A stretch of 51,999 nt of DNA from a virus, in the IMG/VR virus record IMGVR_UViG_3300031758_000112, positions 1 to 51,999 of that record; one strand, 5' to 3'. Both the position numbers and the translations under genes were made by a program. Below the pieces are notes generated by a model. It was given only the letters and a program-made list of their open reading frames with translations. It was not told where the DNA came from and ran no database searches. How positions within the stretch are numbered: the first letter of the stretch is position 1; each line of letters starts with the position of its first letter. Shown here one piece after another: positions 11,128 through 28,356 of the stretch.

Positions 11128-11212
11128 CGAGGAGCTTTGGATCTTGGTGCTCCACTACGAGCGCCTGATCCAATTACTTCTGGAACAACTAGATGGCAAC
11201 CCTGCGGATTGA
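11102..11212 (+). CDS. Possible tiny leucine-rich peptide gene (36 aa)
   Basis: A frame starting ATG at 11102 encodes MTQQTPLTNEELWILVLHYE and then RLIQLLLEQLDG..., a plausible amphipathic helix. It overlaps the end of the preceding gene by 26 bases and the polymerase start by 20. The polymerase ATG at 11193 has only a weak ribosome-binding site of its own, so translation through this frame could feed it. The site ahead of 11102 is also weak. Real but minor, or a chance frame. Confidence 0.4.
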   Translation: MTQQTPLTNEELWILVLHYERLIQLLLEQLDGNPAD

Positions 11213-13208
11213 CCTTGAGACGTACAGCGATGTCGACTTGAAAAAGTGCGGCGTGCATAAGTACGTCGAGTCGGACAACTTCGAAGTGATGTTGTTTGGA
11301 TTTAAATGGAGCACCGGCCAAGTGTGCGTCATTGATCTGGCCCAAGGGCAGGCGTTGCCCGAGCACATCGTTGCCGCATTGGACGACCCCACGATTACCA
11401 AGACCGCATACAACGCGGCCTTTGAGATTGCGTGCTTGAGCAAACATTTCAAGCGCCAGCTGGACGTGACCCAGTGGCGTTGCACCAGCGTGCACGCGCT
11501 GTACCTTGGCCTGCCCGGCAGCCTTGGTGATGTAGGCAAAGTGTTAGGGCTTGGAGACGACAAGCAAAAGCTGGTATCGGGCTGGGCCCTGATCCGCTAC
11601 TTCTGCCTGCCATGCAAACCGACACTGAAGAACGGTGGCCGCACGCGCAACCTACCGCACCACGATCCAGACAAGTGGGCGCTGTTCAAAGAATACTGCG
11701 CGCGTGACGTTGACTCAGAGGATGAGATCGCGATGAAGATCGCAAAGTTTCCGGTGCCCGATCAGGAGTGGAAGTTGTGGCACCTTGACCAACGCATGAT
11801 GAACAGGGGTGTAAGGGTTGACCGCGAGTTGGTCAACGCAGCCATCGAGTGCGACGGCATATTTAAAGAGCGGATGACCACCGAGGCCATTACTCTCACA
11901 GGTTTAGATAACCCTAACTCTCGGGACCAATTGCTCAAGTGGTTGCAGACCGAAGAGGAGGACGACACGATCGTTGACCTGACCAAGAAGAACGTGCCCA
12001 AGGTTCTTGAATCTACAGACAGCGCGACGGTGCGACGCGTGCTGGAGCTGCGCCAAGAGATGGCCAAGACAAGCGTGTCTAAGTATCACGCCATGGCCCG
12101 GGCCATGTGCGACAAGGACGACGCGGTCAAAGGCTTGACCCAGTTCTATGGTGCGAACCGCACCGGCCGTTGGGCTGGTCGTTTGGTGCAGGTGCAGAAC
12201 CTACCGCACAACAAGCTGCGCGACATCGACTTGGCCCGTAACTTGTTGAAGGCCCGTGACTACGAAACCCTTGAGCTGTTGTTTGGCAATGTGCCTGACA
12301 CGCTGTCACAGCTCATCAGGACTGCGTTCGTTGCGCGGGAGGGGTGCAGATACATCATCGTCGACTTCAGCGCCATTGAGGCCCGTGTGATTGCTTGGAT
12401 GGCATGGTGTCAGTGGCGGCTTGATGTGTTTGCCACACACGGCAAAATCTACGAAGCGTCGGCTGAGCAAATGTTTAACTTGCCGGCCGGCAGCGTCACG
12501 AAGAAATCGCCGTACCGCCAGAAGGGCAAGATCTCTGAGTTGGCTTTGGGATACCAAGGCGGGGCCGGCGCACTCAAGACTATGGGCGCGTTGGAGATGG
12601 GGCTCACAGAGGATGAGCTTGAGCCAATCAAAGACGCATGGCGCGGGGCCAACCCTGAGATCGTTCAGCTTTGGTACGCGTGCGAGCGCTCGGCCAAGGA
12701 CGCGGTGCTGGGCAAGAAGTCTGTCACGCTTTTGCTTGCAGGCAAGAAAGCTGCGCTGGTGTTTGCGTACGAGTCAGGGTTCCTGACGATCCAATTGCCA
12801 AGCAAGCGCAAGCTGTTTTATGTGAAGCCGCGCATTGAGGCTGAAGACCTTGTGCGTGAGACCAGTGCCGGCGGCAAATTCATTGCGGCCAGAGCAGGGT
12901 CCTTGACGTATGAAGGTCAGGACCAGAAGACCAAGCAGTGGACGCGCCTGTCTACGTACGGTGGCAAGCTGGTGGAGAACATTACACAGGCAGTGGCCCG
13001 TGATTGTTTGGCCGAGTCGATGCTGGCGCTGGACGATGCAGGCTACACGCAGCTGGCCACGGTGCACGACGAGATCATCATGGAGATGAAAGGCGGCACG
13101 TTGAAAGAAGCCGAAAAGATTATGGGCGAAGCCATTGCATGGGCGCCCGGCTTACCGTTGCGAGGCGACGGCTTTGAAACCAAGTACTACATGAAGGAGA
13201 TTGACTGA
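11193..13208 (+). CDS. Family A DNA polymerase with 3'-5' exonuclease (671 aa)
   Basis: The exonuclease domain opens with RIDLETYS (DxE at residues 7-9) and later YCARDVDSEDEI. The polymerase domain shows motif A VDFSAIEARV (about 389-398), an upstream RTGRWAGRLVQVQNLP region (about 322), an O-helix-like stretch around KKSPYRQKGKISELALGYQG, and motif C VHDEI (about 623-627). There is no 5'-3' exonuclease domain, as usual for phage enzymes. It copies the phage genome, probably with the primase-helicase encoded on the other strand. Length and motifs agree with phage PolA-type polymerases. The stop overlaps the next ATG. Confidence 0.95.
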   Translation: MATLRIDLETYSDVDLKKCGVHKYVESDNFEVMLFGFKWSTGQVCVIDLAQGQALPEHIVAALDDPTITKTAYNAAFEIACLSKHFKRQLDVTQWRCTSVHALYLGLPGSLGDVGKVLGLGDDKQKLVSGWALIRYFCLPCKPTLKNGGRTRNLPHHDPDKWALFKEYCARDVDSEDEIAMKIAKFPVPDQEWKLWHLDQRMMNRGVRVDRELVNAAIECDGIFKERMTTEAITLTGLDNPNSRDQLLKWLQTEEEDDTIVDLTKKNVPKVLESTDSATVRRVLELRQEMAKTSVSKYHAMARAMCDKDDAVKGLTQFYGANRTGRWAGRLVQVQNLPHNKLRDIDLARNLLKARDYETLELLFGNVPDTLSQLIRTAFVAREGCRYIIVDFSAIEARVIAWMAWCQWRLDVFATHGKIYEASAEQMFNLPAGSVTKKSPYRQKGKISELALGYQGGAGALKTMGALEMGLTEDELEPIKDAWRGANPEIVQLWYACERSAKDAVLGKKSVTLLLAGKKAALVFAYESGFLTIQLPSKRKLFYVKPRIEAEDLVRETSAGGKFIAARAGSLTYEGQDQKTKQWTRLSTYGGKLVENITQAVARDCLAESMLALDDAGYTQLATVHDEIIMEMKGGTLKEAEKIMGEAIAWAPGLPLRGDGFETKYYMKEID

Positions 13209-13459
13209 TGACACAAGACACGAAAATCTGGAGCGAAGACTTTGTATTGGCCAACCCTAAATTGGCAGCCGATGCCATTGGTTGTCTCATTGAGTTGAAC
13301 GAGTACGCGCGCAACAATACGCTTGATGAGATCTCAAAGAAAATAGCCGCCATGCCCGGAGACACGGCGGCTGGTATTGCCATCTGGATTCGAGAACAGA
13401 AAACTATTTCCGCTTCTCGCCCTCAACAGTTAGACCTTCCTTTAGACGCTGCTTCTTGA
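13208..13459 (+). CDS. Small hypothetical protein at end of early operon (83 aa)
   Basis: Its ATG shares one base with the polymerase stop (TGATG), so the two are coupled. Product MTQDTKIWSEDFVLANPKLA... is mainly helical, with a polar tail. No motif recognised. Its last 56 bases overlap the 3' end of the convergent 1588-residue gene, and no terminator separates the two operons. Confidence 0.6.
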   Translation: MTQDTKIWSEDFVLANPKLAADAIGCLIELNEYARNNTLDEISKKIAAMPGDTAAGIAIWIREQKTISASRPQQLDLPLDAAS

Positions 13460-16400
13460 TCTGCTGAAGCTCGCGTTGTGCATCGGCGTTCTTCTCAGTG
13501 ATGGCGCCTTTGCCAGCAAGCCTGTCGATCTGACGCATCTCAGCTTCAAGATCGCGTATCAGTTTTTCTTGCTGCGCTTTGTTGATCTGTTCTGATAACT
13601 CCAGATCGATTGGTCTTGCTTTGATACCCATGGTCTGCATTGCTGCGTAGCCGGGTTGTACTGGCAGGCCGTCTTTGCCTGTGCCGGTGTAGCCCAAAAT
13701 GTCTTGGCCGGTCACGTTGGCAATCACATTGAGCGCGCGGTCCCAGTGGTAGTTGCCAATGGCAACGGCCGGTGCAAACTGCTGCCACAACCACTTGCCG
13801 CGTTTGGCTGCGGCCTCTGCGCTGGTGTCGTTCTTGTCAACAATGTCTTTGCCAAAGAACGGGTCCTTGTTCCAGATCATTGCGCCGACTGTGTTGAGTA
13901 TCGGGTTGCTTGGTGTGATCGGCTGCAAAAGCGGGACGCCGCCGGCGTTGGCGTTTGCGTCTAGCAAGTCGCCGCCCGGGAAGACCCGGCTTACGTCCAA
14001 GAACACGGGCAGGTTGGTCACGTCGTCCATGCCAAGGCGGATAGCCTTTGGTGTGGCCAGCGTGGCGCTGGCGCCCTTCATCCAAGGCGGTAGGTTTTCG
14101 CGCTCTTGCTTCTCTATCTCGCGCGCCTTGTTCCTAAATTCAGGGTCGGTTGCGTAGCGGCGGATGACGGTCCACCAGTCTTCGTCCTCACCACCGCCAA
14201 GGCTGGCAGCCATTGCGTACATGAAGGCGTTGACTGTGTACAGCGCAGCAGCCGGGGCAGCGTATCGCATTGGGTGCTCAAGCGCCGTGCGCGCCAGCAC
14301 TGGCACGACCTTGTATGTGTAGCTAAAGAACGGCAGCGCAAAGTCACGAGCCAGACGCGCGCCCTTGGGCAGGTCGTCGTAGGTAAAGATAAAGTTCTGT
14401 GACCAATCGACCGCGTCTTCTACGTCGACCCCGCGCTTGCGCGCGTCACGGTAAATCAAGTAGCGGAAGAACAAGTCTTCGGCTTCGTACGCTTTGCCGG
14501 CCGGCTTGCGCAAGAAGAATGACAGGGCGTTGAACACCCGGTCAACAGCCATACCTGCTTTGGACTCCGTCATCTGGGCCATGGCCTTGAGCTGTTCTGG
14601 CAGCTGGTCCATTAACTCAGAACGGTTGAACGTGCCGCCAAACAAGCCAGCCTCTTTGGCTTCGTCAACCATGGGGTCGCCCTTGATCAGATCGCGCACT
14701 GCGCCGCCGTACTTACCGGCATCCCAGTAAGACACGCCAGCAAAGTGAGCCATGGTCAAGTTAGACAAAACGTTGTTGGCATGCGATACGGGATTGAGAA
14801 CGGTCTTGCCCTCTTTCCACATCGACAAACCTTTGAGATACATCTTGAGCAAATCGTTTTGCATTGATGTGTCAAAGGTGCTGAGCTGGTCCATCACTTC
14901 TTTGGGCACCCACTTACCGGCGAGCTTGCCATAGCGGCGAACGTTTGCGGTGTCTTCAATTGTGGATGAGGGAACCTTGACGTAACCGGGTTTTTCTACG
15001 CGACTTGCGTATGATGTTGCAAGGTTTTCATACAGACGGCCAAGCGCCATGTCGCGTTGGGATTTGTTGTAGCCCATGACAAAGCGGAACATGGCATCTC
15101 GGATCTCGCCCATGTCGTCGCGCTCGGTGCGTGTGTAGTCGCGCCACATTGTCACGACGTCACTGGTCAGCGGGTCGAACGTAGGATCGCGCACTTCCCA
15201 GCCTTCGTCGAGCCAGTCTTGCACGTCAGCAACGGGCACGTTCTCAAACATACCGCGAGCCTTGAGGCTGTTGCCGGTGATGCCCTGCATTGTGCGGGTG
15301 CGGCCCATCAAACTCTTGGCCGCTTTCATCCATGCTTTTGTTTCGTCGCCAATCTTGGACTCATAGAAACGTGGCAAGTATTTGCCGTCCCAGCGGCCAG
15401 CTGCTTCCGGTGTCAGCATGCCCAAGCGCACCAGTTCTGCGGTCTGTTCGGACATGATTGATTGCATTGAAGCGGCCAAATCTAACACACGCTTGGGTGG
15501 CTTGACGCCGCGCTTGAGTTCGCCCTCGATCACATCGCTGATCATCTGGCGCTCTTGCTCTGGCAAGTCTTTGAGGTTCTTGGCCACGTCGACCGTGAGG
15601 GCCTGCGCCTTCTCAACTTCGGTCTTCATCTTGCGCAGCGCGCGGCTCAGCTCAGGGCTGACTGGCTTCATGCCAATTCTGTCTAGTACGTTGTTGGCCA
15701 CATCGGCCACCAGACGGTAGGCCTTGGCGCCTGCACCAAAGCGGAAGCGGCCGGTGGCATCGCGGCTGAGGATCCAACCCTCAGTCTGGCGATTGCTGAA
15801 CATCATGTCAGCTGGGTTTTCTTGGCGCCACTGCGAGGCGGCTAAGACAAAGGCGTCAAAATCTTTGTCGCCAAACTCATCTATCGTTTTGTAGCCAGCC
15901 TCTTCGGCCTTCTCTTGCAGAAAGACCTGTTGCTGCTTGGCGTCTTCCGAAAGCTCTCTTTGTTTTACCGAGTAGCTTGGCCCTTCAAACTGACCCCGGC
16001 CTCGGCCTTCGCCAACAGCGCGCGTTTCGTCGCCAATAGTTTGGCCTGTGCTTCGGCCTTCTGGGCCGGTGTTAAAACCACGGGTGGTTGCGTCGTAGAC
16101 CGCTTGGTTGATGCGCCCTGCTTCAAGTTCTTTGTCTGTTGCATTTTGAAATTTCTCCCTCAAACCTTCTCTACTGACCACTGGAATTTCTTCAAGTGGA
16201 ACTACGGCAAAGTTACCGTTGCCTCGGCTGTTGTCGACCGCGACAATGTCGAACAATGGGTTGTCTGCAAAATCTCCTTGCAGCTTGAGCACCGTTTCGT
16301 TTGATCCTGCGTGGCCTTTTACCAAAGCATCAAGCGCAACAGTGCGCCCGTTCTTTGGGTCCATGGCTCGCTTGAATACCCCGGCAACTAGAGAGTCGAC

Positions 16401-18170
16401 AGGTTCGCGATATACATAAGCAATCATAACTGCTTGGCCAGAATCAAGAGCAAGCTGGATATTGCGCACGGCCTTGGCGTAACCAGACAGCGTGCCGTCA
16501 AGAATTGTGTTGGCTCGGTTGAACACATCGTCTAGCAAGGTCTCGGCACTGGACTTGCCGGAGCCGCCGCCACCGGCCATAAACAGCACAAGGCCGCCCG
16601 GTCTCTCGCGCATTTCTTGCATGCGTTTTTCAAACAGTTGCTGAGTAAAGGCGCTGGCTGCTTCGTGCACTTCAGGCGCGCGGTTGCGATCGGCCCTGTA
16701 TTCCGGCGACAGCAGGCGTGCCAGATCGGTGTCAAGCAGGCGGCCTTTTTTGGTGCCGTTGATTGCGCTGTACTCTTCAACAGCTGCGTCAAAGTCAGAA
16801 AAGATTTTTTGTTCAAGCAGCCTGTTGAGGTCGTCTTCTCTGGCGCTGAACGCAATCGGTGCGCCGGTGATGTCTTTGCCATCTTCGCTGAACGTGGCGT
16901 TCTTGGCCAACACCAAAGGGCCGATCTGGATCACCTCGTCGGCGCTCAGAACTGGGCGCATGGTGTCGCGGTCGTAGAAGTAGCTGTGGCGGAATGGGTC
17001 CATGCCGACCTGTGTCCAAGCCGAGTCTTTGATGGCGGCATCAGCCCGAACCTTTGCGGCTTGGTTGCTGATGGGTTTCCACTTACCAAGCATGGTGGCA
17101 ATCGTGCCCTTGCTTGTACCCTGTGCAATCTTGATTGCCGCCTTTTGGTTCATGCCAAAAGTTACGTCGGTCATTGATGCTACGGATTCGTAGCCAATGA
17201 CAGTGCCTGCGTCATACGCTGCTTGCACTTCACGGTTGGTGGACTTAGGTGTGTGAATGCTGACCACCCACGAGTCATGCTCTTGGTACGAAGGGATGTC
17301 CAAGCGCAGTTGGGCAAAGTCGCCTTTGGCCAAGGTGCTTGATGGCAGGCCATACTTGGCCGCCTTCTCCGGGCTTTGACCACGGCCATTGGCCAAAGCA
17401 TATTTAGCGTCGGCTGGTGTTGTGAGCGCAGGGACTTTTTCGTACGGATAGACCGGGCGAAGGTCGTCGACCATGGCGTTGTATTCGTCTTGGGTAATCT
17501 TGCCTTCTTGCAAGTCGGTGACGGCTTGCTGCAATTCGTCGGTTCGCTTGAATCGATCAGAGCTAACGTTGGACACGCGGCTTGCTGCCGCATTCTTTTG
17601 TTCGCGGCGGCTAAGGCTAGGTGCAATTACTTTACGGGCTACGATGCCAAGGCCAACATCAAGCTCGGTTGCATATCGAACCGGGTTTTCTACGGGGTAT
17701 AAATATTTAACGCCGCCCGGGGCAATGTCAAACTTAGAATCTTTGGGCACCAAAGTTTGATCTCGATATTGATCAAATTGTTTTTGAGTAGTTACTTTTA
17801 TAGGCTCGCCAATTGTTACCGCGCCAATTGCTTTAGCAGGGCCGTCGCCAGTTCTAACAATGGCAACTCGTTTTCCTACGTAGGGGCGAAGCGAATCCGA
17901 AGCCCTAGTTTCTAAAGTTTTTTGGCCGTCAACAATTTTATCTGCGTATTGATTTTCACCGTCTTGATTGACATTAATGCCAATGCTTTCAGTTTGTTCG
18001 CGTCGGCTAAGTGCTGGCGCCCCACCTCCGGCCTCAGCAAGCGCGGTTGCCCGAGCAGGCAAGTACTGAGCCAGCCCACCTTCAAGCAGGAATTCTTTAA
18101 GGGCGGGTATCCCCTTAACCGTGATGCTCTTACCGTCAGCACCAGTGAACGTGTATTTACATGTTGCCAT
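13404..18170 (-). CDS. Giant polyvalent protein with ASCH-like and zeta-toxin-like domains (1588 aa)
   Basis: A multidomain protein of the kind called polyvalent proteins, which phages are thought to inject with their DNA. Residues ~77-125 (KIVDGQKTLETRA ... GAVTIGEP) resemble an ASCH domain. Residues ~240-430 form a conserved-looking globular segment (SWVVSIHTPKSTNREVQ, GYESVASMTDVTFGM). Residues ~525-665 resemble a zeta-toxin kinase, with Walker A GGGGSGKS at 533-540. Residues ~820-1240 are helical (WRDYTRTERDDMGEIRDAMF), and a hydrophobic stretch near 1270-1310 (LPFFSYTYKVVPVLA, then AAPAAALYTVNAFMYAMA) could touch the membrane. The last ~70 residues are charged helix. It is the last gene of the late operon and overlaps the convergent early operon. 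Confidence 0.8.
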   Translation of the reverse strand: MATCKYTFTGADGKSITVKGIPALKEFLLEGGLAQYLPARATALAEAGGGAPALSRREQTESIGINVNQDGENQYADKIVDGQKTLETRASDSLRPYVGKRVAIVRTGDGPAKAIGAVTIGEPIKVTTQKQFDQYRDQTLVPKDSKFDIAPGGVKYLYPVENPVRYATELDVGLGIVARKVIAPSLSRREQKNAAASRVSNVSSDRFKRTDELQQAVTDLQEGKITQDEYNAMVDDLRPVYPYEKVPALTTPADAKYALANGRGQSPEKAAKYGLPSSTLAKGDFAQLRLDIPSYQEHDSWVVSIHTPKSTNREVQAAYDAGTVIGYESVASMTDVTFGMNQKAAIKIAQGTSKGTIATMLGKWKPISNQAAKVRADAAIKDSAWTQVGMDPFRHSYFYDRDTMRPVLSADEVIQIGPLVLAKNATFSEDGKDITGAPIAFSAREDDLNRLLEQKIFSDFDAAVEEYSAINGTKKGRLLDTDLARLLSPEYRADRNRAPEVHEAASAFTQQLFEKRMQEMRERPGGLVLFMAGGGGSGKSSAETLLDDVFNRANTILDGTLSGYAKAVRNIQLALDSGQAVMIAYVYREPVDSLVAGVFKRAMDPKNGRTVALDALVKGHAGSNETVLKLQGDFADNPLFDIVAVDNSRGNGNFAVVPLEEIPVVSREGLREKFQNATDKELEAGRINQAVYDATTRGFNTGPEGRSTGQTIGDETRAVGEGRGRGQFEGPSYSVKQRELSEDAKQQQVFLQEKAEEAGYKTIDEFGDKDFDAFVLAASQWRQENPADMMFSNRQTEGWILSRDATGRFRFGAGAKAYRLVADVANNVLDRIGMKPVSPELSRALRKMKTEVEKAQALTVDVAKNLKDLPEQERQMISDVIEGELKRGVKPPKRVLDLAASMQSIMSEQTAELVRLGMLTPEAAGRWDGKYLPRFYESKIGDETKAWMKAAKSLMGRTRTMQGITGNSLKARGMFENVPVADVQDWLDEGWEVRDPTFDPLTSDVVTMWRDYTRTERDDMGEIRDAMFRFVMGYNKSQRDMALGRLYENLATSYASRVEKPGYVKVPSSTIEDTANVRRYGKLAGKWVPKEVMDQLSTFDTSMQNDLLKMYLKGLSMWKEGKTVLNPVSHANNVLSNLTMAHFAGVSYWDAGKYGGAVRDLIKGDPMVDEAKEAGLFGGTFNRSELMDQLPEQLKAMAQMTESKAGMAVDRVFNALSFFLRKPAGKAYEAEDLFFRYLIYRDARKRGVDVEDAVDWSQNFIFTYDDLPKGARLARDFALPFFSYTYKVVPVLARTALEHPMRYAAPAAALYTVNAFMYAMAASLGGGEDEDWWTVIRRYATDPEFRNKAREIEKQERENLPPWMKGASATLATPKAIRLGMDDVTNLPVFLDVSRVFPGGDLLDANANAGGVPLLQPITPSNPILNTVGAMIWNKDPFFGKDIVDKNDTSAEAAAKRGKWLWQQFAPAVAIGNYHWDRALNVIANVTGQDILGYTGTGKDGLPVQPGYAAMQTMGIKARPIDLELSEQINKAQQEKLIRDLEAEMRQIDRLAGKGAITEKNADAQRELQQIKKQRLKEGLTVEGEKRK

Positions 18171-18174
18171 GTGA

Positions 18175-18666
18175 TCAGGCTCCCAGCTCCTGATCGATCA
18201 AGAGCATGCCCGCTTTGTCGCCATCTACTAGCTGGATGCGTGCAAGCAAGTCGCCGTACTCGCCAACGCTGGTACGCTGGAGCTCCAGAAACTGAAGCAA
18301 AAACTGTTGGACCACGGGGTCGCTGCTGGTCTCGGAGTACATATTTTTGTAAGTGTTATACAGCTCAAGCTCAGTTTCATAGGCCAATTCCATGGCATCA
18401 GAAAACGATTTGATTGAATCATCCATGGCCTCAATCATTGGGACCTTGGCCACGGTGCCTACATCGTTTTGAAATTGTGCGTGCAGTTGGTAGTGATCCA
18501 ACTCGGCTTCGCTTTCTTTCAAAAAGAATTTCATCGCGCCAAGGTAACCAAGGCGCTGCACCTGATTGGCGATGTGTTTGTACAGGTTTGCTGCGTAAAG
18601 CTCAGCGTGAATTGCGTCGTCAAGCATGCGCTTGATGTCAGCGGAGATGATCATTGTTGGTGTCAT
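18175..18666 (-). CDS. Ferritin-like diiron protein (163 aa)
   Basis: Length and pattern match bacterial ferritins: helix A with HAELYAANLYKHI (E22), helix B with ESEAELDHYQLH giving the ExxH pair E55/H58, helix C with AYETELELY (E97), helix D with FLELQR (Q130). Compared from memory with E. coli FtnA, these align with E17, E50, H53, E94 and Q127, so the ferroxidase pair is kept, while residues of the extra third iron site (E49, E126, E130) are not. The C-terminal MLLIDQEL resembles the FtnA ending YFIDKEL. The likely job is Fe(II) oxidation and storage, or detoxification. It lies between two giant polyvalent proteins in the late operon with gaps of only 4 and 9 bases. A rubrerythrin-like diiron protein is the main alternative. 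Confidence 0.82.
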   Translation of the reverse strand: MTPTMIISADIKRMLDDAIHAELYAANLYKHIANQVQRLGYLGAMKFFLKESEAELDHYQLHAQFQNDVGTVAKVPMIEAMDDSIKSFSDAMELAYETELELYNTYKNMYSETSSDPVVQQFLLQFLELQRTSVGEYGDLLARIQLVDGDKAGMLLIDQELGA

Positions 18667-18675
18667 GGTAGGCCC

Positions 18676-21600
18676 TTATTTGCAATTGATTTCGACTAAG
18701 CCAGCTGTGTCCAGCTCGTCGAGGATGTCGAGAAAATTGTCCTGCATGTATTGAATTTGAGCCGCGTCTGACCGCCGCGCAATCACGGCTTGAACGTTTG
18801 TCTTGGCAAGGCCTCGACCATCCAGCTTAGTAAACAGATTGACAAGGGGCATAGCATTTGCCCTGCTGTCTAAAGTTTTTTCGGTTCTTGCTCGGATGAG
18901 GTCTGATCGCTCTTGTCCTTGGAACGGACCCAACCTTTGACCCGCGCCGCCAACCGGTCCAGTTGTTCCGGCGTTTTGCTTTCCAGCCATTTGTCGTGCT
19001 GGTCCTGATCCTGATTTGGCTGCTGTGTTGATTCGTTTAGCATCGAAGCCTTCTTTCTTTAGGAGAGATTGTGCCGCACCAGCGTAGTCTTGGCTAGTCA
19101 CGCGGAGCCTTACGCCCAGCTTTTTATAGAGCTCTTGTTCAGGGTACCAGATCAAGGCTTGCAACGCGGCCGGCGGCACGCGCTTACCAGTTTGCTTTTC
19201 AACCAGATCTACCATCTCGCGAACAACGCTGCGCAAACGCTGGCGTTCACCGCCACTGGACGGGGCGTCCGTAGGCTTATCTGCTGATTTTAATATGGAC
19301 CCAGCTGCGCCAACCAATGCGGTCTTCTTGCGCGTGCCAGCGTCAAACTTGGCGCGCTCTTTGATGAACTGCCTGTTGTGCAAACTGAACACCTTGCGCG
19401 CCAAAGCAATTGCGCCTTCGTCGGTTTGTTGCGCGGCAGCAACATCTTCTGGTTTGAAGTCTGCGGCGTAAACGCCCTCGGCCGATGAGCCTGTCTCAGC
19501 CAAAGCAGCGCGCAGCTTGGCCACTTGTTTGGGAAACAGGGCCGGGTCAAACGCTGGCAGCGTGCCACTTAAACGGCCGACGGTGCGCATGAACCACATG
19601 TCCATGGTCACGGGTTCAAAGTTGCCGGTCAAGTTGCTGTAAAAGCCAAAGCCAATCTTGGGTCCAAACACAGCGGACCCTAAAACCGTTTCGCCCATTG
19701 ACTCGCCACCAATCTTAAAGCCCATGCCTTCGAGATCCCGCTTGGTCAATTCAGTTTGTAAGAACCTGCGCAGATCAGGGGCGCCCAATTCTCTTAGCAA
19801 GCTGTTGGCCAGCGCAAAATTCTTGGCCATCGCTGGCGCAGACTTGCCAGTGCCCTGCTCTGGAAATGCGCCCGTATCCGTTTTGCGAAGGGCTTCGCGG
19901 AACGCTTCGTATTGATTTGACGCATAGCGCAAGTTGTCTTCTACGTTCATGGTCTGCGACGAGATGGCCACGGCCATCAAAAATGCATTGCGCGCGTCTG
20001 GGTCTGTGTTTAGTTCGGGGTACTTGACAGCCATGACACGCAGCGTTTTAGCTACAGTCTCGTCGTACCATTCGACAGCATTGCCCGCGCTGCGAATTGC
20101 GCCAACAGCCTCGGCTGCCAGCATGCGTGCCAGCGTGCTGCGGTCGTCGGCCTTGTTAAGGTCAAGCACCGGCATGCCCGCGTCACGGTAGCGCTGGTCA
20201 AGCCATTGCACAACTTCCGGAATGCCGCCAACTTTAGGCGCATCAAACGCATCGCTTTTGGTTTTGCCTGTCATCAAACCTAGAACAGAAGCGTCGTATT
20301 GTTCCTTGGACAAACCAAGCGCGTCGGCCACATTGCGGAACGTACCGAGATCGGTTGGCTTTTCTTCAACAGGCTCTGCTTGTTTATCGCTAAACCTGAC
20401 GGTGCTGCCGATGCGCTCCAGCTCTGTGTTGGCCGCGTCGCGTGAGGCAACGGGGATCTCCAGATTGCCAGCAGCAACACGGGCGCCCGGTACACGGGAT
20501 GCCTCGATAGTGGCCAGCTCTTTGGAAAGGAGACCCTTCTTCAGCGTTGTTGGTTCGGCTGCAACAGGGGCTGGGGCGCCAGCCACGCGGCCTATAGACT
20601 TGACAGGTACGGCCGAATGGCGCGGACCCAACAGGACGACAGCAGCTTGATTGTTCCCGAAAGGGGCAATGTAACCGTCAAAACCCCCGTTAATTACTGC
20701 GGATTCGAAGGCGTTGAAGTTTCCTTTGACCGGGAGTATCTGCGTTTGGGGGTCGTAGATGTTGTTGAGTCGGACTTCGTGGGCGATGCCTCCGACTCCG
20801 GACTCGGGGCGGACGCCGGAGCCTTGGTCAACATAGAAATAAACGCGGTTTTTGAGGCGAGGATCTGGGCTACCGTCCAGTCGATCGCGCTCTGCACCTT
20901 TGAGACCAGTCCCATAATAAGCTCCATTTAACGAAGTGCGGGCTTCGGTTGAGTAGTGGCGGGCGAGGACTGAGATGGCGCCTTCGCGGGCTGTTCCATA
21001 CTCTGGGGTTTCACCGCGCCCATCTCCACCAGCGAGTTGTCGAGTTGACGCTGTAGGCCCTGATACGCCTTCACCGCCTGTGGTGCTAATGCTTCCATTT
21101 AAAGTTCCTTTGTTATACGCGACGAGTGCGTCGCGGGCTATTGCCTTTGCCTTGTTTAAATCACGCAGGTAGGTGTCGACTTTGGCAGATTCTTTTCTGC
21201 CTTGAGTTGACGTGCCCTTAAGCGTGTCAATCAAATTGTCAATGATCTTAATCCATTTGTCGACAAAACCTTTAAAGCCTTGTGGGTCAGCAGCTGCCAC
21301 GTCCTGCCAGAACTTTTTGTCTGTGGCCCGGTTGCCTAGGAAATCGGCAACCATTTCGGACCGCAGGGTCTTGCCGGCCATTGCTTCTTGCAAGCGTTGT
21401 TCCCGCGCAACAGGATCGGCGATTGCGCCCAGCTCTTCCTTCATCAGGAAGTTTTCAAGGTATGCGCGTTTACCCGCATCGGTCATCTCGTCAAAGATGC
21501 CGTCCATGCTGGCCACGTATTGCTGAGCGGCCGTGTTGGTTTGGCCTTGCTTGGCTTCCAGTTTTGCAAGCTGTTCAACCGTGTGATGGAATTCGTGTAG

Positions 21601-23934
21601 GCCTGTGCGCGCAACGTTGGTGTCAACGTTGGCTGTGTTAATGAAGGCCGCGCCGCCAATGGCCACGCCGTTTATGGCGTTGGCTCGGTCGTCGTTATAA
21701 GCGTAAACCCTAGCACCAAACTGGCTATTCAGCGCTTGAGCGATTTCATTGACTGCGCTGTCCAGTGCTACTGGAGACGCATTGAAAACCGCTGGGCTTT
21801 CTACACCGTTGGAAGTAGCCCACCTGTCGATAACATCTTGTGCAGTTGCTCTCGCTCCTGCTGCGGCAGACTCTCCTCCCACTGGCGCAATTGCGGCACC
21901 AGACACTTCCGATTCTGGGAGGGTAAGGGTTTTGTCGGCGGTGATGGTTTGGGTTGCTGCATCGGCTGATAGTACGGCAGGGACGTTTGTAAGTCCAGTG
22001 GCTGGGGTAGTACCAGCCACTTCCGCTTGACGCGCTGTGAGCTCAACTGACGCGCCTCTGCGGGTAATTGCAGGGATGGTCTCGTCAGTAGTGATGGCCT
22101 GAAGCTGGTCGTTGGACAGTTGCGAAACCGCAACACCTTGGATCTTTTGTGGACGCGGTGCAGTCAAACGCAACTTGTCCAAACCAAACTGTTGTTCTGT
22201 AGCAACGCTTGGTTCGGGCAACGTTAGGGCCTGCATTGTGTCAAGGGCAGGCAACGGCTCGTTGGGATCAAACGTTGGCTCGATCCGGCCAAGGGTATCT
22301 ACGGCCGGCAACGGCGGGGGTTCAATTGCAACAGGCGCAAGCGGCTTGGGTGTGATCTCCAGCGATCCGGCCAATTCATTTGCCGAGGTGACCGCGTCGT
22401 CAACCGAGGTTGATTGCAAAACGCGTGATGGGTCTGACGTTTGCAGCGGGCTGATCAACCGGGCGTCGTATGTCTGGGGACTTAATAGGTTACGGGCAGT
22501 TTGGTCAATACCTGTAAACTGGGTATTGGCAACGTTCTGTTCAATAGCCCGGGCAATCTGCGCGTTGGGGTCGTAGGCGCCCGTAGCAATGCCGGCAACT
22601 TGCGGCGTTGACATGACCGTGCCCGTAGCTGCGCCAATCACAGCGGCCTCACCAAGATCTTTGCTTAGCTCAATGTCTTTGCCTTGGAAAAACTTGTCAA
22701 GCACGTTGCCGCCAAATTGGGCAACCGTTTCTTCAACGGCGTTGGTAATGCCGTTGGCTGTGATTGCAACACCTGACTGCGCCAGTCTCTGTCCAGTAAT
22801 TGCCCAGATGGCGTTTTGCTTTGCAACCGATAGGCCTTTAAACGTGTCGCCCAATTTGTCAAAAACTTTTAACGGCAACATCTCTGTGCCGATTTCAATT
22901 GCGCCCTTGGTTACAGCTACCCGAGAGTCATCGCCCTGCGCGTAGCTTTGGCCAGCCGCTGTGCCGCCCATGCTGCCCAGCAAGGCTACGCGAAGCGGAG
23001 GTACAAAAGCCGCAGCCAATTGCTGTGCCATTTGAGGGGAGTTAGCCGCCAGCTTGGACATAAGCCACGGGCCAAACTCTTCGTTTTTCCACGCGCCTTC
23101 CATGCTGCGGGTGCCAATCTTAGGCATGTAATCTTGAGTGCTTTTGGCAAGGTATTCAGTACCAAACGCGGTAGGCGCTCTGGCCAAAGGTTTTAGACCG
23201 GCCAATTGCAAAACGGGGTTGACAACACTTTGGTTGATAAAGTCGGCCGCTACGCTTGGAATGTTTAAGGTGCCGCTAAGCAAACCCGCTGAACCGGCAG
23301 CAGCGCTGGCAAGCAAAGGGCTTTCTTCAGCAGAGCGTTGGCGACGCGCAGTTTCAACATCTTGCTGTAACAGCTCGTCGCTCTTTAACCGTTGAACCAG
23401 TTGGTCAAAAGTTTCGGCGCCTTGGGCTTCGCGAGCTTTGGCAACAGTAAGCGCGGGGCCCGGCTCAACCGGTACGCGCCCCATGCGCATTTGGTCGGCC
23501 TTGGCCACAGTCTCGCGACTGATAGGTCCTGCGCCATAGCCCAAGCGCTTGTCAATTTCGGCCTGTTGCTGTTGAGCTGTTAACGCAGGCGCTGTCTCCA
23601 ACACGCTTTTGTAGGGCGTGACTTTTTCCACAAAGGCGGGAACGATCCCACTAACCGTGCCTTTGATAGCCTCGGCCGCGCGCGACAGCACGCCCGGTGG
23701 CTCTTTTGGTTTAACAGGTGCAGGCGCGGGTGCAGGCGCGGGTGCAGGGGCTTCCTCCACTGGCGCCGCTTTGGGGGCAGCAACCCGACTCGTCAGGTGG
23801 CTTATGATTTCGTCGTCGCTAACGCCGTCCTTACGAGCGCTATCAACGTCGAAGTTTCTTTTGCTGGCAAGGTAGTCAGCAATCTCGGCCGGGCTGTATC
23901 CGTCCTTTAAAGCACCTTGAACGTCAAATGCCAT
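18676..23934 (-). CDS. Giant polyvalent protein with HEFHH metallopeptidase motif (1752 aa)
   Basis: The N terminus has two short repeats (ALKDGYSPAEIADYLA at 8-23 and ARKDGVSDDEIISHLT at 33-48), then an Ala-Pro linker. Residues ~200-450 contain Gly/Ala-rich hydrophobic stretches that could insert in membrane. Residues ~695-800 carry GLHEFHHTVEQ with HExxH at 780-784, typical of zinc metallopeptidases. Residues ~1030-1150 (AYYGTGLKGAERDRL, RVYFYVDQGSGVRPESG) match a domain frequent in phage polyvalent proteins that may be ADP-ribosyltransferase-like. Residues ~1200-1430 (MDMWFMRTVGRLSG) form another recurrent phage domain of unknown role. Probably a virion-interior protein ejected into the host. 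Confidence 0.78.
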   Translation of the reverse strand: MAFDVQGALKDGYSPAEIADYLASKRNFDVDSARKDGVSDDEIISHLTSRVAAPKAAPVEEAPAPAPAPAPAPVKPKEPPGVLSRAAEAIKGTVSGIVPAFVEKVTPYKSVLETAPALTAQQQQAEIDKRLGYGAGPISRETVAKADQMRMGRVPVEPGPALTVAKAREAQGAETFDQLVQRLKSDELLQQDVETARRQRSAEESPLLASAAAGSAGLLSGTLNIPSVAADFINQSVVNPVLQLAGLKPLARAPTAFGTEYLAKSTQDYMPKIGTRSMEGAWKNEEFGPWLMSKLAANSPQMAQQLAAAFVPPLRVALLGSMGGTAAGQSYAQGDDSRVAVTKGAIEIGTEMLPLKVFDKLGDTFKGLSVAKQNAIWAITGQRLAQSGVAITANGITNAVEETVAQFGGNVLDKFFQGKDIELSKDLGEAAVIGAATGTVMSTPQVAGIATGAYDPNAQIARAIEQNVANTQFTGIDQTARNLLSPQTYDARLISPLQTSDPSRVLQSTSVDDAVTSANELAGSLEITPKPLAPVAIEPPPLPAVDTLGRIEPTFDPNEPLPALDTMQALTLPEPSVATEQQFGLDKLRLTAPRPQKIQGVAVSQLSNDQLQAITTDETIPAITRRGASVELTARQAEVAGTTPATGLTNVPAVLSADAATQTITADKTLTLPESEVSGAAIAPVGGESAAAGARATAQDVIDRWATSNGVESPAVFNASPVALDSAVNEIAQALNSQFGARVYAYNDDRANAINGVAIGGAAFINTANVDTNVARTGLHEFHHTVEQLAKLEAKQGQTNTAAQQYVASMDGIFDEMTDAGKRAYLENFLMKEELGAIADPVAREQRLQEAMAGKTLRSEMVADFLGNRATDKKFWQDVAAADPQGFKGFVDKWIKIIDNLIDTLKGTSTQGRKESAKVDTYLRDLNKAKAIARDALVAYNKGTLNGSISTTGGEGVSGPTASTRQLAGGDGRGETPEYGTAREGAISVLARHYSTEARTSLNGAYYGTGLKGAERDRLDGSPDPRLKNRVYFYVDQGSGVRPESGVGGIAHEVRLNNIYDPQTQILPVKGNFNAFESAVINGGFDGYIAPFGNNQAAVVLLGPRHSAVPVKSIGRVAGAPAPVAAEPTTLKKGLLSKELATIEASRVPGARVAAGNLEIPVASRDAANTELERIGSTVRFSDKQAEPVEEKPTDLGTFRNVADALGLSKEQYDASVLGLMTGKTKSDAFDAPKVGGIPEVVQWLDQRYRDAGMPVLDLNKADDRSTLARMLAAEAVGAIRSAGNAVEWYDETVAKTLRVMAVKYPELNTDPDARNAFLMAVAISSQTMNVEDNLRYASNQYEAFREALRKTDTGAFPEQGTGKSAPAMAKNFALANSLLRELGAPDLRRFLQTELTKRDLEGMGFKIGGESMGETVLGSAVFGPKIGFGFYSNLTGNFEPVTMDMWFMRTVGRLSGTLPAFDPALFPKQVAKLRAALAETGSSAEGVYAADFKPEDVAAAQQTDEGAIALARKVFSLHNRQFIKERAKFDAGTRKKTALVGAAGSILKSADKPTDAPSSGGERQRLRSVVREMVDLVEKQTGKRVPPAALQALIWYPEQELYKKLGVRLRVTSQDYAGAAQSLLKKEGFDAKRINTAAKSGSGPARQMAGKQNAGTTGPVGGAGQRLGPFQGQERSDLIRARTEKTLDSRANAMPLVNLFTKLDGRGLAKTNVQAVIARRSDAAQIQYMQDNFLDILDELDTAGLVEINCK

Positions 23935-23942
23935 GAGGGTCC

Positions 23943-24803
23943 TTAGTCGTTTACTGCTTTGTCGCGTTCGTATTTCGTCAGGTCTTTGGGACCGCTGCTA
24001 GGCACAACAAGCTGGCCGCGTAAACGCGCTTCTGCTTGTTTGCGCTTTTCAGCTTCCGGCAGTTTGGCAAACTTGTAATCATCTTTGGCCATCTTGGTAA
24101 CCAAGTTGGACACGGTCTTGTCGTAGTCCGCCGCTTTACCAAGCACCCTCTCACTGCTGTCAGACATGATTGCAACTTTGTTACCGTCGCTGTTGGTGTA
24201 GGTGCTGCGTACTGTAATTTTGCCAGCGCCACCGGATGGTTTGTCTTTGACAGCGTCAGCCTTAATTTCAGCTATCTTAATGTCACCCGCTTTAGCGGCT
24301 TTCGACAATTTGCCCGTGCCTTCGAGATAGTCGTCGCTCTCTGACAGCGTTTTTGTTTCTGTAATTTTGGCTGCCGTGGCGGCCGTTGCTTTCTTACCTT
24401 CCAAAGCCTTGTTTTGTTCAAACTCAACGTCCCCGGCTTTGGCGTTAATAGGAGCCAGAGTTTCTCTAGTTTTAGCTGCGGCTGTGCCTTCTGCAACCAG
24501 CGCCCTAGCCTTGGCTTCTGGCACACCGGCTTTTATCAAAGCGTCAAATTTATCGGCCTCTGCTTTAGCCGTTGCTTCCAAATACGCAGGGGTCTGGACG
24601 CGGGCTTCTTCGGTAAGACGATCCGAAACATCACGCCCGCGCTTGATCTCATCGATGCGCAATTGCTTTTCGGTTTCAGCCTCCAAGAGCTGTTTCCTTA
24701 AATCCAGCTCGCCCTGCTTTTTCATTTCCATGTCAGCTGCCTTGCCGTAGCCTTCAGCTGTGCGGCCCATGACGCTGCTAATCAAGCCACCAAAACTAGC
24801 CAT
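23943..24803 (-). CDS. Coiled-coil virion-associated protein (286 aa)
   Basis: Opens with MASFGGLISSVMGRTAEGYG, then long Lys/Glu/Ala-rich helices (GELDLRKQLLEAETEKQLRI) and a helical, low-complexity middle. A short strand-rich section (RSTYTNSDGNKVAIMSDSS) precedes a charged C terminus. Composition and position among late genes suggest an internal virion or injection-apparatus protein, comparable in place to T7 gp14-16. No specific family is recognised. Confidence 0.65.
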   Translation of the reverse strand: MASFGGLISSVMGRTAEGYGKAADMEMKKQGELDLRKQLLEAETEKQLRIDEIKRGRDVSDRLTEEARVQTPAYLEATAKAEADKFDALIKAGVPEAKARALVAEGTAAAKTRETLAPINAKAGDVEFEQNKALEGKKATAATAAKITETKTLSESDDYLEGTGKLSKAAKAGDIKIAEIKADAVKDKPSGGAGKITVRSTYTNSDGNKVAIMSDSSERVLGKAADYDKTVSNLVTKMAKDDYKFAKLPEAEKRKQAEARLRGQLVVPSSGPKDLTKYERDKAVND

Positions 24804-24804
24804 A

Positions 24805-25305
24805 TCAAGCCCCCATCTGCTGCGGTGCAGCCGGAATGTTCTCGTCGCTGTATTGGTTCAACATCTGTTCCATCTTGTCCGGCGCAACGCCAAACTTTTC
24901 TAAGATGATGGCCATCATGATTTGTATGGCGTTTCCAATATCACCGTTGGTTGGGTTGGCCAGCTTAGTATTTCGCATGAAGTCAACCGCTTCCATAAGC
25001 AACTTAACGCCGGCCGGGATGATCACCTCGGGCGGCATCGTTTCGTTTGATTCTTTGAAAAGCAACAGCATTAAACCAGCGACGCCTTGGCCAAGGCGTT
25101 GATCTATAGGGCCTTCCTTTTGCAATTCTTTCAACATCATGCGGTGACTCTCTTTGGAGTACATCACCTTCATGCCGGCAACGACCACGCGGTCGTAAGC
25201 CTCCTGTAACTCAGGCGGCATTTGGATGTTGTCGGATACGTCTTTCGTTGAAAGGTCGTCGCCATCTGGTCGGCCCATGCCGTCTTGAATAATTCCTGTT
25301 GCCAT
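24805..25305 (-). CDS. Late virion-associated protein (166 aa)
   Basis: The start at 25305 is chosen because AAGGAG lies just upstream; the longer frame from 25350 would overlap the previous gene by 35 bases. Product MATGIIQDGMGRPDGDDLST... has a helical hydrophobic centre (GQGVAGLMLLLFKESNETMP, then GVKLLMEAVDFM, AIQIMMAIILEKFG). Similar small helical proteins accompany internal virion proteins in short-tailed phages. Function not assigned. Confidence 0.65.
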   Translation of the reverse strand: MATGIIQDGMGRPDGDDLSTKDVSDNIQMPPELQEAYDRVVVAGMKVMYSKESHRMMLKELQKEGPIDQRLGQGVAGLMLLLFKESNETMPPEVIIPAGVKLLMEAVDFMRNTKLANPTNGDIGNAIQIMMAIILEKFGVAPDKMEQMLNQYSDENIPAAPQQMGA

Positions 25306-25315
25306 GGTGTTCTCC

Positions 25316-26377
25316 TTATGCTGGGCGTGTTTGCATGTTGCTGGCCACAAGCCCGGGGGCTTGTGCGTTGGCGTTGGGGTTAACTGCTATGTTGGATTGC
25401 GGGCTTACTGACGTATAGCGATTAGTCATGTTAAGGCGGCGTTGCTTTTCTTTTGCAATAGCCAACTGAATTTCTTGCGCTTTTGCGTCAGCATAACCAG
25501 TGTTGGCTTCCAGCGCTGCAATCTCAGAGTCGGTCTTGCCGCTTAAGTAATCAGTTAGACCACCGATTGCTTGAGCCGCAACATAGGCACCTGTTGGATT
25601 GTTCTTCAACATGTCCATGGCGCCTGAACCAACAGCGCCGGCGGCGTCTATTAAGTTGCCCTTTTTCAAAGATTCCGCAAACGTGTCTTTATATGGCCCA
25701 TAAGAGGTGGGGGGTTTAACGCCGGGGGCGTAAGACATTTCGGGAAGTTTATTGCCAAGTATGTCCATACCGGGTTTAGCAAGCGGATCGACAGCGGGGT
25801 TCATGTTCAAAGACCGGGTGCCGCCGCCGGCAACGGGGACATCCGCGCCACCGCCACCGCCACCGGGAACGTTAACGTCAAGGTTCTTAGTATTTAAAGC
25901 AGCGTCATTAGATTGGAGCTTGATGTCTGCCGCGCTTGAGGGAACCTCAGCAACTGGTTTAACTTCGGGCGCGCCGGTTGGAGTCTGAGATAAAGTAGCC
26001 TCAGCACCTGTTTTAGCGGCGTCCATACCAAAAGTCTCGCCAACAGTGCCGGATTTAAACAAGCCTGCGCTTTCAGCAGCCATGCCTACACCGCCGGCGA
26101 TACCCGCGATCATGCCAATCTTTGATAAGGTCTTATTGCCCGTCACGTTGCCAATTAGGCTCAGGGCCGCGCCAGCAAAGGTGATGCCTTGCATCAAAGT
26201 CATTGCAGCAAACGTGCCGGCAGCCGCGTAAGTGCCCGCCATTGTCGAGATCGCAATGATCGCGCTGATTGGTTCGTTCTTTTCGCCGTAAGCTGCCCCG
26301 CCGGTGGGGTCACCGATAGGATGGTCAGCCGCCATTGCCCGGGTTTGTGTCCGGGTCAAATAAAATTTCTTAATCAT
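25316..26377 (-). CDS. Gly/Ala-rich internal virion-like protein (353 aa)
   Basis: Residues ~35-110 are Gly/Ala-rich and hydrophobic (AIIAISTMAGTYAAAGTFAA, GMIAGIAGGVGMAAESAGLF), followed by a Pro/Gly-rich flexible middle with a run of glycines and a helical C terminus (ALEANTGYADAKAQEIQLAI). This matches the general make-up of phage internal proteins that enter the membrane during genome ejection. The 4-bp overlap with the GNAT-like gene upstream shows they are in one unit. Confidence 0.65.
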   Translation of the reverse strand: MIKKFYLTRTQTRAMAADHPIGDPTGGAAYGEKNEPISAIIAISTMAGTYAAAGTFAAMTLMQGITFAGAALSLIGNVTGNKTLSKIGMIAGIAGGVGMAAESAGLFKSGTVGETFGMDAAKTGAEATLSQTPTGAPEVKPVAEVPSSAADIKLQSNDAALNTKNLDVNVPGGGGGGADVPVAGGGTRSLNMNPAVDPLAKPGMDILGNKLPEMSYAPGVKPPTSYGPYKDTFAESLKKGNLIDAAGAVGSGAMDMLKNNPTGAYVAAQAIGGLTDYLSGKTDSEIAALEANTGYADAKAQEIQLAIAKEKQRRLNMTNRYTSVSPQSNIAVNPNANAQAPGLVASNMQTRPA

Positions 26378-26763
26378 AGTTTCCTCTCAAATGGTAGGCT
26401 GCCAAGCAGGTAGTACTCAACGTTCCCGTCTTTCCAAGTGGGTTTGAACCCAAGTCGTGTTACAAACATTTTTTGATCCGCGTGCCCGTGCGCTATGCGC
26501 GTAGTCAAAAAGCCATGTCTTTCAAACATTGGTTTGAGAAAAGACCTGATTGACCCACGCATGCTGCCCTTGGGCCGCCAGTCAGGAACAAGCGCAAAGT
26601 GCACCTCGGTCCCCTTAGCCACCATCGTACAAACATGGCGCCCTTCAAAATCAAACGGGACGATTTCCCAATCAGCAAAATACTCAAGGATCTCATAACG
26701 AGACAGCGCTGTGCCCTTACGAATCGAAGAGATAATCGGTTCGAGAAAAGCTTCGCGTGTCAT
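26374..26763 (-). CDS. GNAT-like acetyltransferase-fold protein, T7 gp13-type position (129 aa)
   Basis: The C-terminal RLGFKPTWKDGNVEYYLLG is the usual end of a GNAT fold (after the acetyl-CoA-binding region), and GTEVHFALVPDWRPKGSMRG occupies the P-loop region, in which the classical Q/R-x-x-G-x-G/A is replaced. DUF2833 proteins, including T7 gp13, have this fold and are encoded just before the internal virion proteins, as here. It may be a structural or assembly factor rather than an enzyme. It overlaps both neighbours by 4 bases. Confidence 0.65.
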   Translation of the reverse strand: MTREAFLEPIISSIRKGTALSRYEILEYFADWEIVPFDFEGRHVCTMVAKGTEVHFALVPDWRPKGSMRGSIRSFLKPMFERHGFLTTRIAHGHADQKMFVTRLGFKPTWKDGNVEYYLLGSLPFERKL

Positions 26764-27764
26764 GTAAAGACCAACAAGTCTTTAAGCCCGGGGATGCCAG
26801 ACGTTGCGCTCAAAATTCCAAGCGCAGTTTTTAATTGCGCTTTTTGATCGTTGACCGCTGCGGTTACTTGGGTCGTATCTAAGTCAGGGTTGGCCATAAG
26901 ATCCGCAATGTTCTTAGACACTTGCTGGAAAATATCGTTTGCGCTTTGTGACGCCTGCATTTGGTTCTTGTACCTAGCTTCAGTTGCGGCCAAGTCTTTA
27001 CGGGTCGAGGCATCAATGTTTTGCAACTCAATCTTGGTATTTGAATCAGCGTTAGCCAAAGCAATTTTCATTGACTGGTCCATCATGTTTTGAACAGTGC
27101 TGTTCAAAGCCGTGGAGTATTGCTTAGACACATCGGTCTGCACGCCGGCCGTAAACTGGGCGGCTTGGTTTTGATTGGCCGCGTTGTTTAAGGCCGCTTG
27201 GTTCTTGGCGCCAGCAGTAAATTGAGACGCTTGGTTCTGCGCGCCCGCATTGGCCAAAGCCGCTTGATTTGCAGCGGCCGCGCCAAACTGCAAACCGGTG
27301 TTTGTTTGGCCGGTGTTGAACTGGGCGTTCTGGTTGGCCAAATTAGTGTTGAGCTGACCAGCGTTGGCAAAAGTCGTAGCGTCCTGCGACGCAATTGGCA
27401 GAGCTTGTTTGATAACGGCCTCTTGACCAGCGCCTATGGCCATGCTTGAATTGGTCAAACCGCGTTGGTTCATCTGGGCTAAAGAAGCTGCCCGAGCCTG
27501 TTGAAGCAAGGGCGAGTTAGCTGCAAGAATTCCGGTTAACTGACCCTGAACGGTTTCATTGCTTTGGGGAGTCAATGAAGTTAGGGCCGCGTTACCAGCG
27601 GTGTACCCGGTAGCCGCTGCGTTTGAGGCGTCGTAACCCGAAGCGCCAGCTGTCGCGGCGTTATACCCGGTCGCCTGCGGTGCCGACATAGCCTTTGTGG
27701 CCGCAGTAAGCAGGTTAGACCCGGTGTTGGTGTTTAGATCGAATGGATTGTTTGCTATAGCCAT
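26760..27764 (-). CDS. Asn/Gln/Ala-rich virion protein with repeats (334 aa)
   Basis: The start at 27764 is preferred over 27815 because GGAG lies just ahead and the longer frame would run back towards the terminator hairpin. The N-terminal third has degenerate repeats of A-T-G-Y-x-A-x-x-A (QATGYNAATAGASGYDASNA). The middle is a long Ala/Gln/Asn series (GAQNQASQFTAGAKNQAALN) and the C terminus is coiled coil. The low-complexity helical repeats suggest an internal core or ejection protein. It is the first gene after the terminator that closes the lysis cassette. Confidence 0.65.
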   Translation of the reverse strand: MAIANNPFDLNTNTGSNLLTAATKAMSAPQATGYNAATAGASGYDASNAAATGYTAGNAALTSLTPQSNETVQGQLTGILAANSPLLQQARAASLAQMNQRGLTNSSMAIGAGQEAVIKQALPIASQDATTFANAGQLNTNLANQNAQFNTGQTNTGLQFGAAAANQAALANAGAQNQASQFTAGAKNQAALNNAANQNQAAQFTAGVQTDVSKQYSTALNSTVQNMMDQSMKIALANADSNTKIELQNIDASTRKDLAATEARYKNQMQASQSANDIFQQVSKNIADLMANPDLDTTQVTAAVNDQKAQLKTALGILSATSGIPGLKDLLVFT

Positions 27765-27783
27765 ATTTGCTCCACAAATGAGA

Positions 27784-27802
27784 AAGCCGCGTGACGCGGC
27801 TT
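27784..27802 (-). terminator. Hairpin closing the lysis cassette
   Basis: AAGCCGCG and CGCGGCTT form a perfect 8-bp stem around a 3-base loop between the lysozyme gene and the next virion gene. On the minus strand it is followed by TCTCATTTG, a weak U-tract, so termination may be partial, allowing read-through into the internal-protein genes. No obvious new promoter was recognised in the 88-base gap. Confidence 0.55.
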
Positions 27803-27852
27803 CTTGCGGGCGCACGAGCCCCGCACAGATTTTACTTTAATAACCGGGTTGG

Positions 27853-28356
27853 TCAAGATAAAAATAACTCCCTTTCGGCCACCCGCCGCTTGACAAGCCC
27901 GGGCAGTACTTTGCCCCCGCCCTTGGTCCAAACCATGAAAGCCTCTGCTGCGCCCTCCCAATCCCCCCGGTTGGCCTTCATCCGGATTGTGCTGCGCTGG
28001 AGGTTACCTAATCCAAAATTAAAGGATATAGATACCAAAGCGTCAAAGCGACCTTGATGCCCAGCACAGCCGGGAACAAGTCGTAGAACACCACGTTCAA
28101 AAGACGCAACGTCATCAGCGAATAGTTTGTTGATTTCTTCTTTTGTCCAAACACGGTTGTCCTCCGATTGCAAAGGGTGCTCACTGCGGATCACGCCAGC
28201 GTAACCCTCCTTGCGCACCATGGGCAGCTTGATCTGGTCTTGGTACAACACATGCCCAAAACCAATTGTCCAAATGTTGGCCGGGCATAGGTAGGGTTTA
28301 CTCCTACACCCTTCAAAGCGGTGCATCAAATCAGCACCGGCTTTGCTCAATTTCAT
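27853..28356 (-). CDS. Endolysin, phage lysozyme GH24 family (167 aa)
   Basis: The N-terminal FEGCRSKPYLCPANIWTIGFGH is the GH24 active-site region: catalytic Glu in FEG, then the CPAxxxWTIGxGH stretch carrying the conserved Thr. FNFGLGNLQRSTI and a basic C terminus (GLVKRRVAERELF) follow as in P22/lambdoid lysozymes. It cleaves peptidoglycan at the end of infection. The start at 28356 has GGAG upstream and a 4-bp overlap with the holin stop; an in-frame start at 28368 is possible. No signal peptide is seen, so it should need the holin for release. Confidence 0.93.
   Translation of the reverse strand: MKLSKAGADLMHRFEGCRSKPYLCPANIWTIGFGHVLYQDQIKLPMVRKEGYAGVIRSEHPLQSEDNRVWTKEEINKLFADDVASFERGVLRLVPGCAGHQGRFDALVSISFNFGLGNLQRSTIRMKANRGDWEGAAEAFMVWTKGGGKVLPGLVKRRVAERELFLS

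Follow-up and report, generated by a model that had tools for sequence, protein, structure and literature searches.

The 51,999-nucleotide stretch of viral DNA analyzed here (IMG/VR record IMGVR_UViG_3300031758_000112; hereafter the window) encodes, at 18175–18666 on the minus strand, a 163-residue protein that, judged by its Pfam match (PF00210), AlphaFold (AF2) model, Foldseek comparison, and ligand conservation, is a true ferritin with intact A/B diiron-site residues and is predicted to be ferroxidase-competent. Sequence comparison places it in a well-supported, virus-only clade that is common in uncultured phages, and the genes for head or ejection proteins that immediately adjoin it in almost all of these phages suggest that a cage protein able to handle iron may be carried, or used as a building part, by the phages. 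The favored reading, to which a probability of about one half is assigned, is that of an active ferritin belonging to the head/ejection module and probably carried in the virion.

The open reading frame starts with ATG, ends with TGA, and is preceded by an AAGG resembling a ribosome-binding site. Residues 14–146 of the product match the Pfam ferritin family with 57.6 bits (E=1.7e-15), against a curated cut-off of 24.5 bits; the profile search thus returned a ferritin family and not a non-ferritin helical one. All matches shown in a PDB sequence search were ferritins or ferritin fusions. The NCBIfam FtnA equivalog model matched weakly, far under its cut-off, and the sole match in PHROGs, phrog_16594, is annotated as of unknown function. 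The frame is not a chance one, given the PF00210 match, the ferritins found in the PDB, pairwise ratios of nonsynonymous to synonymous substitution rates (dN/dS) of 0.02–0.11 against close relatives, and homologues at more than 100 loci in other viral contigs of IMG/VR. At these ratios, purifying selection on the gene is strong.

The AF2 model, built with 42 homologues in the input (predicted local distance difference test score, pLDDT, 94.2), has five helices (A 9–38, B 42–68, C 88–112, D 117–146, and E 151–162), so that both the four-helix bundle and a C-terminal helix E of the ferritin type are present. In Foldseek, ferritins alone stood at the top, with template modeling (TM) scores of 0.92–0.95 and root-mean-square deviations (rmsd) of 1.0–1.5; the values were TM 0.95 and rmsd 1.0 for Thermotoga maritima ferritin (TmFtn) and TM 0.93 for E. 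coli FtnA. In BFVD, a few of the structural neighbours bear the name of a viral ferritin or Dps.

The putative ferroxidase residues were read from an alignment of 108 phage sequences (in which one contig was fetched twice as L053/L194 and another as L085/L199) with bacterial ferritins and E. coli FtnA, FtnB, and Bfr. The set comprises E22, Y29, E55, H58, E99, and Q130. Five of these are invariant in all 108 phage sequences, while the Y29 position holds Tyr in 92 and Trp in 16. The initial annotation, which had described a complete ferritin-like gene with a C terminus like that of bacterial ferritin and had named E22, E55, H58, and Q130 as ferroxidase residues, is borne out by the agreement of profile, predicted structure, alignment, and tree. 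Its choice of E97 as the helix C ligand was a misassignment: E97 aligns to FtnA K92 and is kept in 83 of the 108 sequences, and the ligand is E99, which aligns to FtnA E94 and is kept in all. The third iron site of FtnA (E126, E129, E130) is absent, the aligned phage residues being L/I, T/K, and S/A; therefore, the ferroxidase center resembles the two-iron H-chain type. Two other family identities were rejected. The positions of Bfr E127 and H130 are occupied by S133 and E136, with His in 7/108 sequences, which speaks against a bacterioferritin. A Dps is contradicted by the intra-subunit ferritin ligands, by helix E, and by the best PDB matches, which are ferritins and not Dps. Outside the ferroxidase site, Y106, F126, E128, R131, and D139 are likewise kept in 108/108 members of the phage clade and are not invariant in bacterial ferritins; they possibly form a partner or assembly surface.

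In a maximum-likelihood tree, phage and cellular ferritins are split with a support of 99/98, and the stem between them measures 2.6 changes per site; to the question raised in the initial annotation, the tree answers that the protein groups with phage and not with bacterial ferritins. The cellular ferritins were mostly FtnA of Pseudomonadota together with Thermotoga and Helicobacter sequences, and it is within that sampling that the clade is virus-only. A search of 50,697 phage records yielded no member of the clade; its single match is 23.5% identical and clusters in the tree with Thermotoga ferritin. E. coli-type FtnA gave six matches in the phage records, all unannotated, four of which are short faecal-virome fragments. 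Matches to bacterial-type FtnA in IMG/VR lie mostly near contig ends, and the contigs bear names that indicate isolate genomes; these matches were read as host DNA and discarded as phage genes. Ten of 398 genomes of the phylum were matched, the best (G049) being the phage contig itself and the others ordinary FtnA-like proteins. A pattern scan of GTDB returned two loci, both on contigs of 5–6 kb that also encode a phage giant protein.

These data bear directly on whether the gene could be a host ferritin gene captured recently, or host DNA misassembled into a phage contig. Ferritin is common in bacteria, and the family occurs in 14/14 control genomes, as such an origin would lead one to expect. 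Against it stand the virus-only clade with its long stem, the restriction of the GTDB matches to the two short contigs with a phage giant, and a synteny conserved across many independent assemblies. Tree and synteny lead to the rejection of host contamination or recent capture within the cellular sampling used, and this origin is regarded as very improbable. Both GTDB contigs were binned in Burkholderiales/Rhodoferax metagenome-assembled genomes, a weak hint at Burkholderiales as the host. The family A DNA polymerase of the window (11193–13208), in contrast to this binning, is closest to those of Firmicutes phages (Brevibacillus phage Emery, 56%).

The ferritin gene lies between two genes for giant proteins on the same minus strand, separated by 9 bases from the upstream one (18676–23934) and by 4 bases from the downstream one (13404–18170), exactly as first annotated. 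The upstream giant (1752 residues) is of the polyvalent type and contains a HEFHH (HExxH) motif near residue 780 with a distal invariant Glu. HExxH is found in 21/22 homologues, and the H-E-H residues and the distal Glu are invariant in 36 homologous segments. The HExxH plus distal Glu pattern has been described for the metallopeptidase domain of polyvalent proteins, a class predicted to enter the host with the phage DNA (PMC5512222). The strands and helices of this putative metallopeptidase region follow the published order; a zincin fold found no support in Foldseek, which gave no significant match, the best being the Zn peptidase 3c37 (E=0.23). Relatives of this giant carry DUF7178, Zeta_toxin, and ART-PolyVal domains. 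The downstream giant (1588 residues), also of the polyvalent type, has a Zeta_toxin-like P-loop at residues 551–634, a Phage_L5_gp82-like region, a weak ASCH match, and a conserved C-terminal half, and its relatives carry ART-PolyVal (13/30), LPD38 (7/30), Zeta (6/30), and RelA_SpoT (4/30). Homologues are 19–71% identical to the upstream and 16–96% identical to the downstream giant. When the domains of relatives are counted, both flanking proteins show the features by which polyvalent proteins are recognized, namely great size, multidomain architecture, proximity to late genes, and several unrelated enzymatic domains. The two giants are likely to be virion-delivered proteins, in line with the initial annotation, to which they looked virion-linked.

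The placement of the ferritin in the late region, also part of the first description, follows from the strand it shares with the genes for the terminase large subunit (49440–50909, minus; phrog_2, 1e-35), the portal or head-tail connector (46804–49032, minus; phrog_332, 3.4e-49), the major capsid protein (42051–43109, minus; phrog_1357, 1.7e-57), and the endolysin. Five small genes upstream of the upstream giant (23943–27764, minus), with weak family matches or none, probably encode other internal-virion or ejection proteins. Just past the downstream giant, a terminator-like hairpin with a 12-bp stem (13345–13372, minus), found by consensus scan only, likely ends the late transcription unit. 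Another terminator-like hairpin (27803–27783) and a promoter-like match (27856–27829) separate the endolysin gene from the gene next to it, which in reality probably begins at the ATG near 27764; with these two elements (27783–27856), the ejection module may be a separate transcription unit. Further along, short-period repeats at 34306–34764, with a 33-nucleotide family present eight times, lie in a glycine-rich segment of a gene that likely encodes a tail protein.

Similar surroundings recur in other phages. Among the 108 IMG/VR loci, a neighbor of at least 600 residues is encoded upstream of the ferritin in 87 and downstream in 87, some of the remaining loci being cut by contig ends. The spacing is usually a short gap or a small overlap, and fusion of the ferritin to a giant, a candidate arrangement, occurs in none of the 108. 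A portal gene directly precedes the ferritin in six loci (L086, L192, L193, L206, L211, L212), and one 100-residue gene separates the two in L051/L052. In L215 and L200 the preceding gene encodes a minor head protein of the MuF/DNA-pilot type. Elsewhere the ferritin is flanked by giants unrelated to those of the window. The downstream giant of L213 has an LPD38 domain in Pfam; the distant giants of L196, L201, L202, L053, and L195 had no Pfam match. In L011, the ferritin is 85% identical to that of the window, while the downstream giant is replaced by one of 22% identity.

Among nine records of at least 50 kb with a near-identical capsid protein, seven have the ferritin. The two that do not, G004 and G006, differ in the corresponding region. 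In G006 (L168:5075-14584), a single protein of 3169 residues joins a DUF7178 domain, as seen in upstream giants, to an LPD38 domain, as seen in downstream ones, which suggests that polyvalent proteins have fused or been split at the position of the ferritin. G004 has a giant of 2048 residues, then six unrelated genes without Pfam matches (L167:6333-12209), and then an LPD38 giant of 1016 residues. Because of these other arrangements, the space between the giants may act as a cargo slot, filled by ferritin in most of these phages.

The single polypeptide of G006, a genome without ferritin, would also fit a structural role, in which the ferritin bundle helps the ejection proteins to assemble, as a partner or as a scaffold, and its diiron site serves fold stability or metal sensing instead of storage. 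The five residues conserved outside the ferroxidase site hint at the partner surface that such a role would need. If the role were purely structural, however, there would be no need for all ferroxidase ligands to be invariant across more than 100 diverged sequences, and this explanation is considered unlikely.

Under the favored reading of a ferritin of the head/ejection module, the protein would be translated from late mRNA between two giants of a type predicted to be packed in the head and co-ejected with DNA; the position of the gene, the hairpin at 13345–13372, and the AAGG before the start all point to late expression. The ferritin would assemble as a cage with or beside the head/ejection proteins and be carried in the virion. 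After entry (as subunits) or inside the capsid, it would oxidize Fe(II), keeping Fenton chemistry off the phage DNA and proteins, and would possibly bring or hold iron. Of the possibilities raised in the initial annotation (late production, packaging, supply or trapping of iron), packaging alone is indirectly favored, by the recurrence of head and ejection genes around the ferritin. The fuller version of this proposal, in which a ferroxidase ferritin is packed in the head/ejection apparatus, is delivered with the DNA, and is a recurring cargo beside portal, minor head protein, and polyvalent effectors of unrelated lineages, is put forward tentatively, at somewhat less than even odds.

Several observations weigh against carriage in the virion. 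A ferritin cage of 24 subunits is 12 nm wide, too wide for the portal channel, and is not ejectable intact; therefore, delivery would have to occur as subunits, or the cage would stay in the head. Since the gene is missing from G004 and G006, whose capsid proteins are 95% identical, the ferritin is not essential for the particle, and its status as an essential core gene was rejected. In L203/L204/L208 the ferritin directly follows a 276-residue gene with a C-terminal GroES-like region, and in L214 it has no head- or giant-type neighbor. The literature search found no experimentally identified virion protein of this phage group, and the gene context also fits mere late expression.

Such expression is the basis of the principal rival, in which the ferritin is a non-virion, auxiliary metabolic protein of the late virocell that stores or oxidizes Fe(II) from degraded host proteins and limits hydroxyl-radical damage to progeny DNA. 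The same intact ferroxidase site would serve this function, the late-strand position accounts for expression, and absence from two close relatives fits an accessory gene. Phage Dps and Mn-catalase have been proposed to act in this way (PMC8008677, PMC6669764), and iron storage rises in marine cells upon infection (PMC12282109). What late iron handling leaves unexplained is the placement beside portal, minor head, and giant ejection-type genes in unrelated lineages. It is held to be an appreciable possibility, if well below even. Should the ferritin instead be packaged and delivered with the DNA, iron would come under control within minutes of the start of infection. In either case, the clade is common among uncultured phages, has an invariant active site, and keeps its head/ejection gene company.

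Virus-encoded ferritin is already known from nucleocytoplasmic large DNA viruses (NCLDV; PMC7136201), as are phage Dps and Mn-catalase; the literature search on phage ferritin returned these NCLDV and Dps cases and unrelated papers only. Neither the 50,697 phage records nor the literature searched yielded a true ferritin with the present gene context, and a ferritin clade confined to phages and associated with head and ejection genes appears new with respect to those sources. The phage protein is like E. coli FtnA and Thermotoga maritima ferritin in its helix E fold, length, A/B-site ligands, and helix D Gln, but it is only ≈18–24% identical to them, belongs to a phage-only clade, is encoded with virion genes, and lacks the third-site Glu126/129/130 of FtnA. 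Phage Dps and Mn-catalase are likewise phage-borne enzymes of the ferritin-like superfamily with possible control of iron and reactive oxygen species. They have been reported as accessory genes in Gratiaviridae and Lactobacillus phages (PMC8008677, PMC6669764), in the latter near DNA-metabolism genes (PMC6669764); unlike Dps, the phage ferritin has a helix E. The NCLDV ferritins belong to giant viruses of eukaryotes, and the section cited describes a eukaryotic iron-storage protein and no virion gene context (PMC7136201). Polyvalent proteins share domains with the flanking giants, whereas the ferritin is made as a polypeptide of its own; the main text of PMC5512222 contains neither the word "ferritin" nor the word "iron". 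The Ferrojan Horse hypothesis (Bonnain et al. 2016) also ties iron to phage particles but, as summarized in later articles (PMC12282109, PMC10980836), places it in phage tails in conjunction with host iron receptors and involves no ferritin. Through the ferritin described here, the loose question of iron control by phage particles and infections becomes directly testable.
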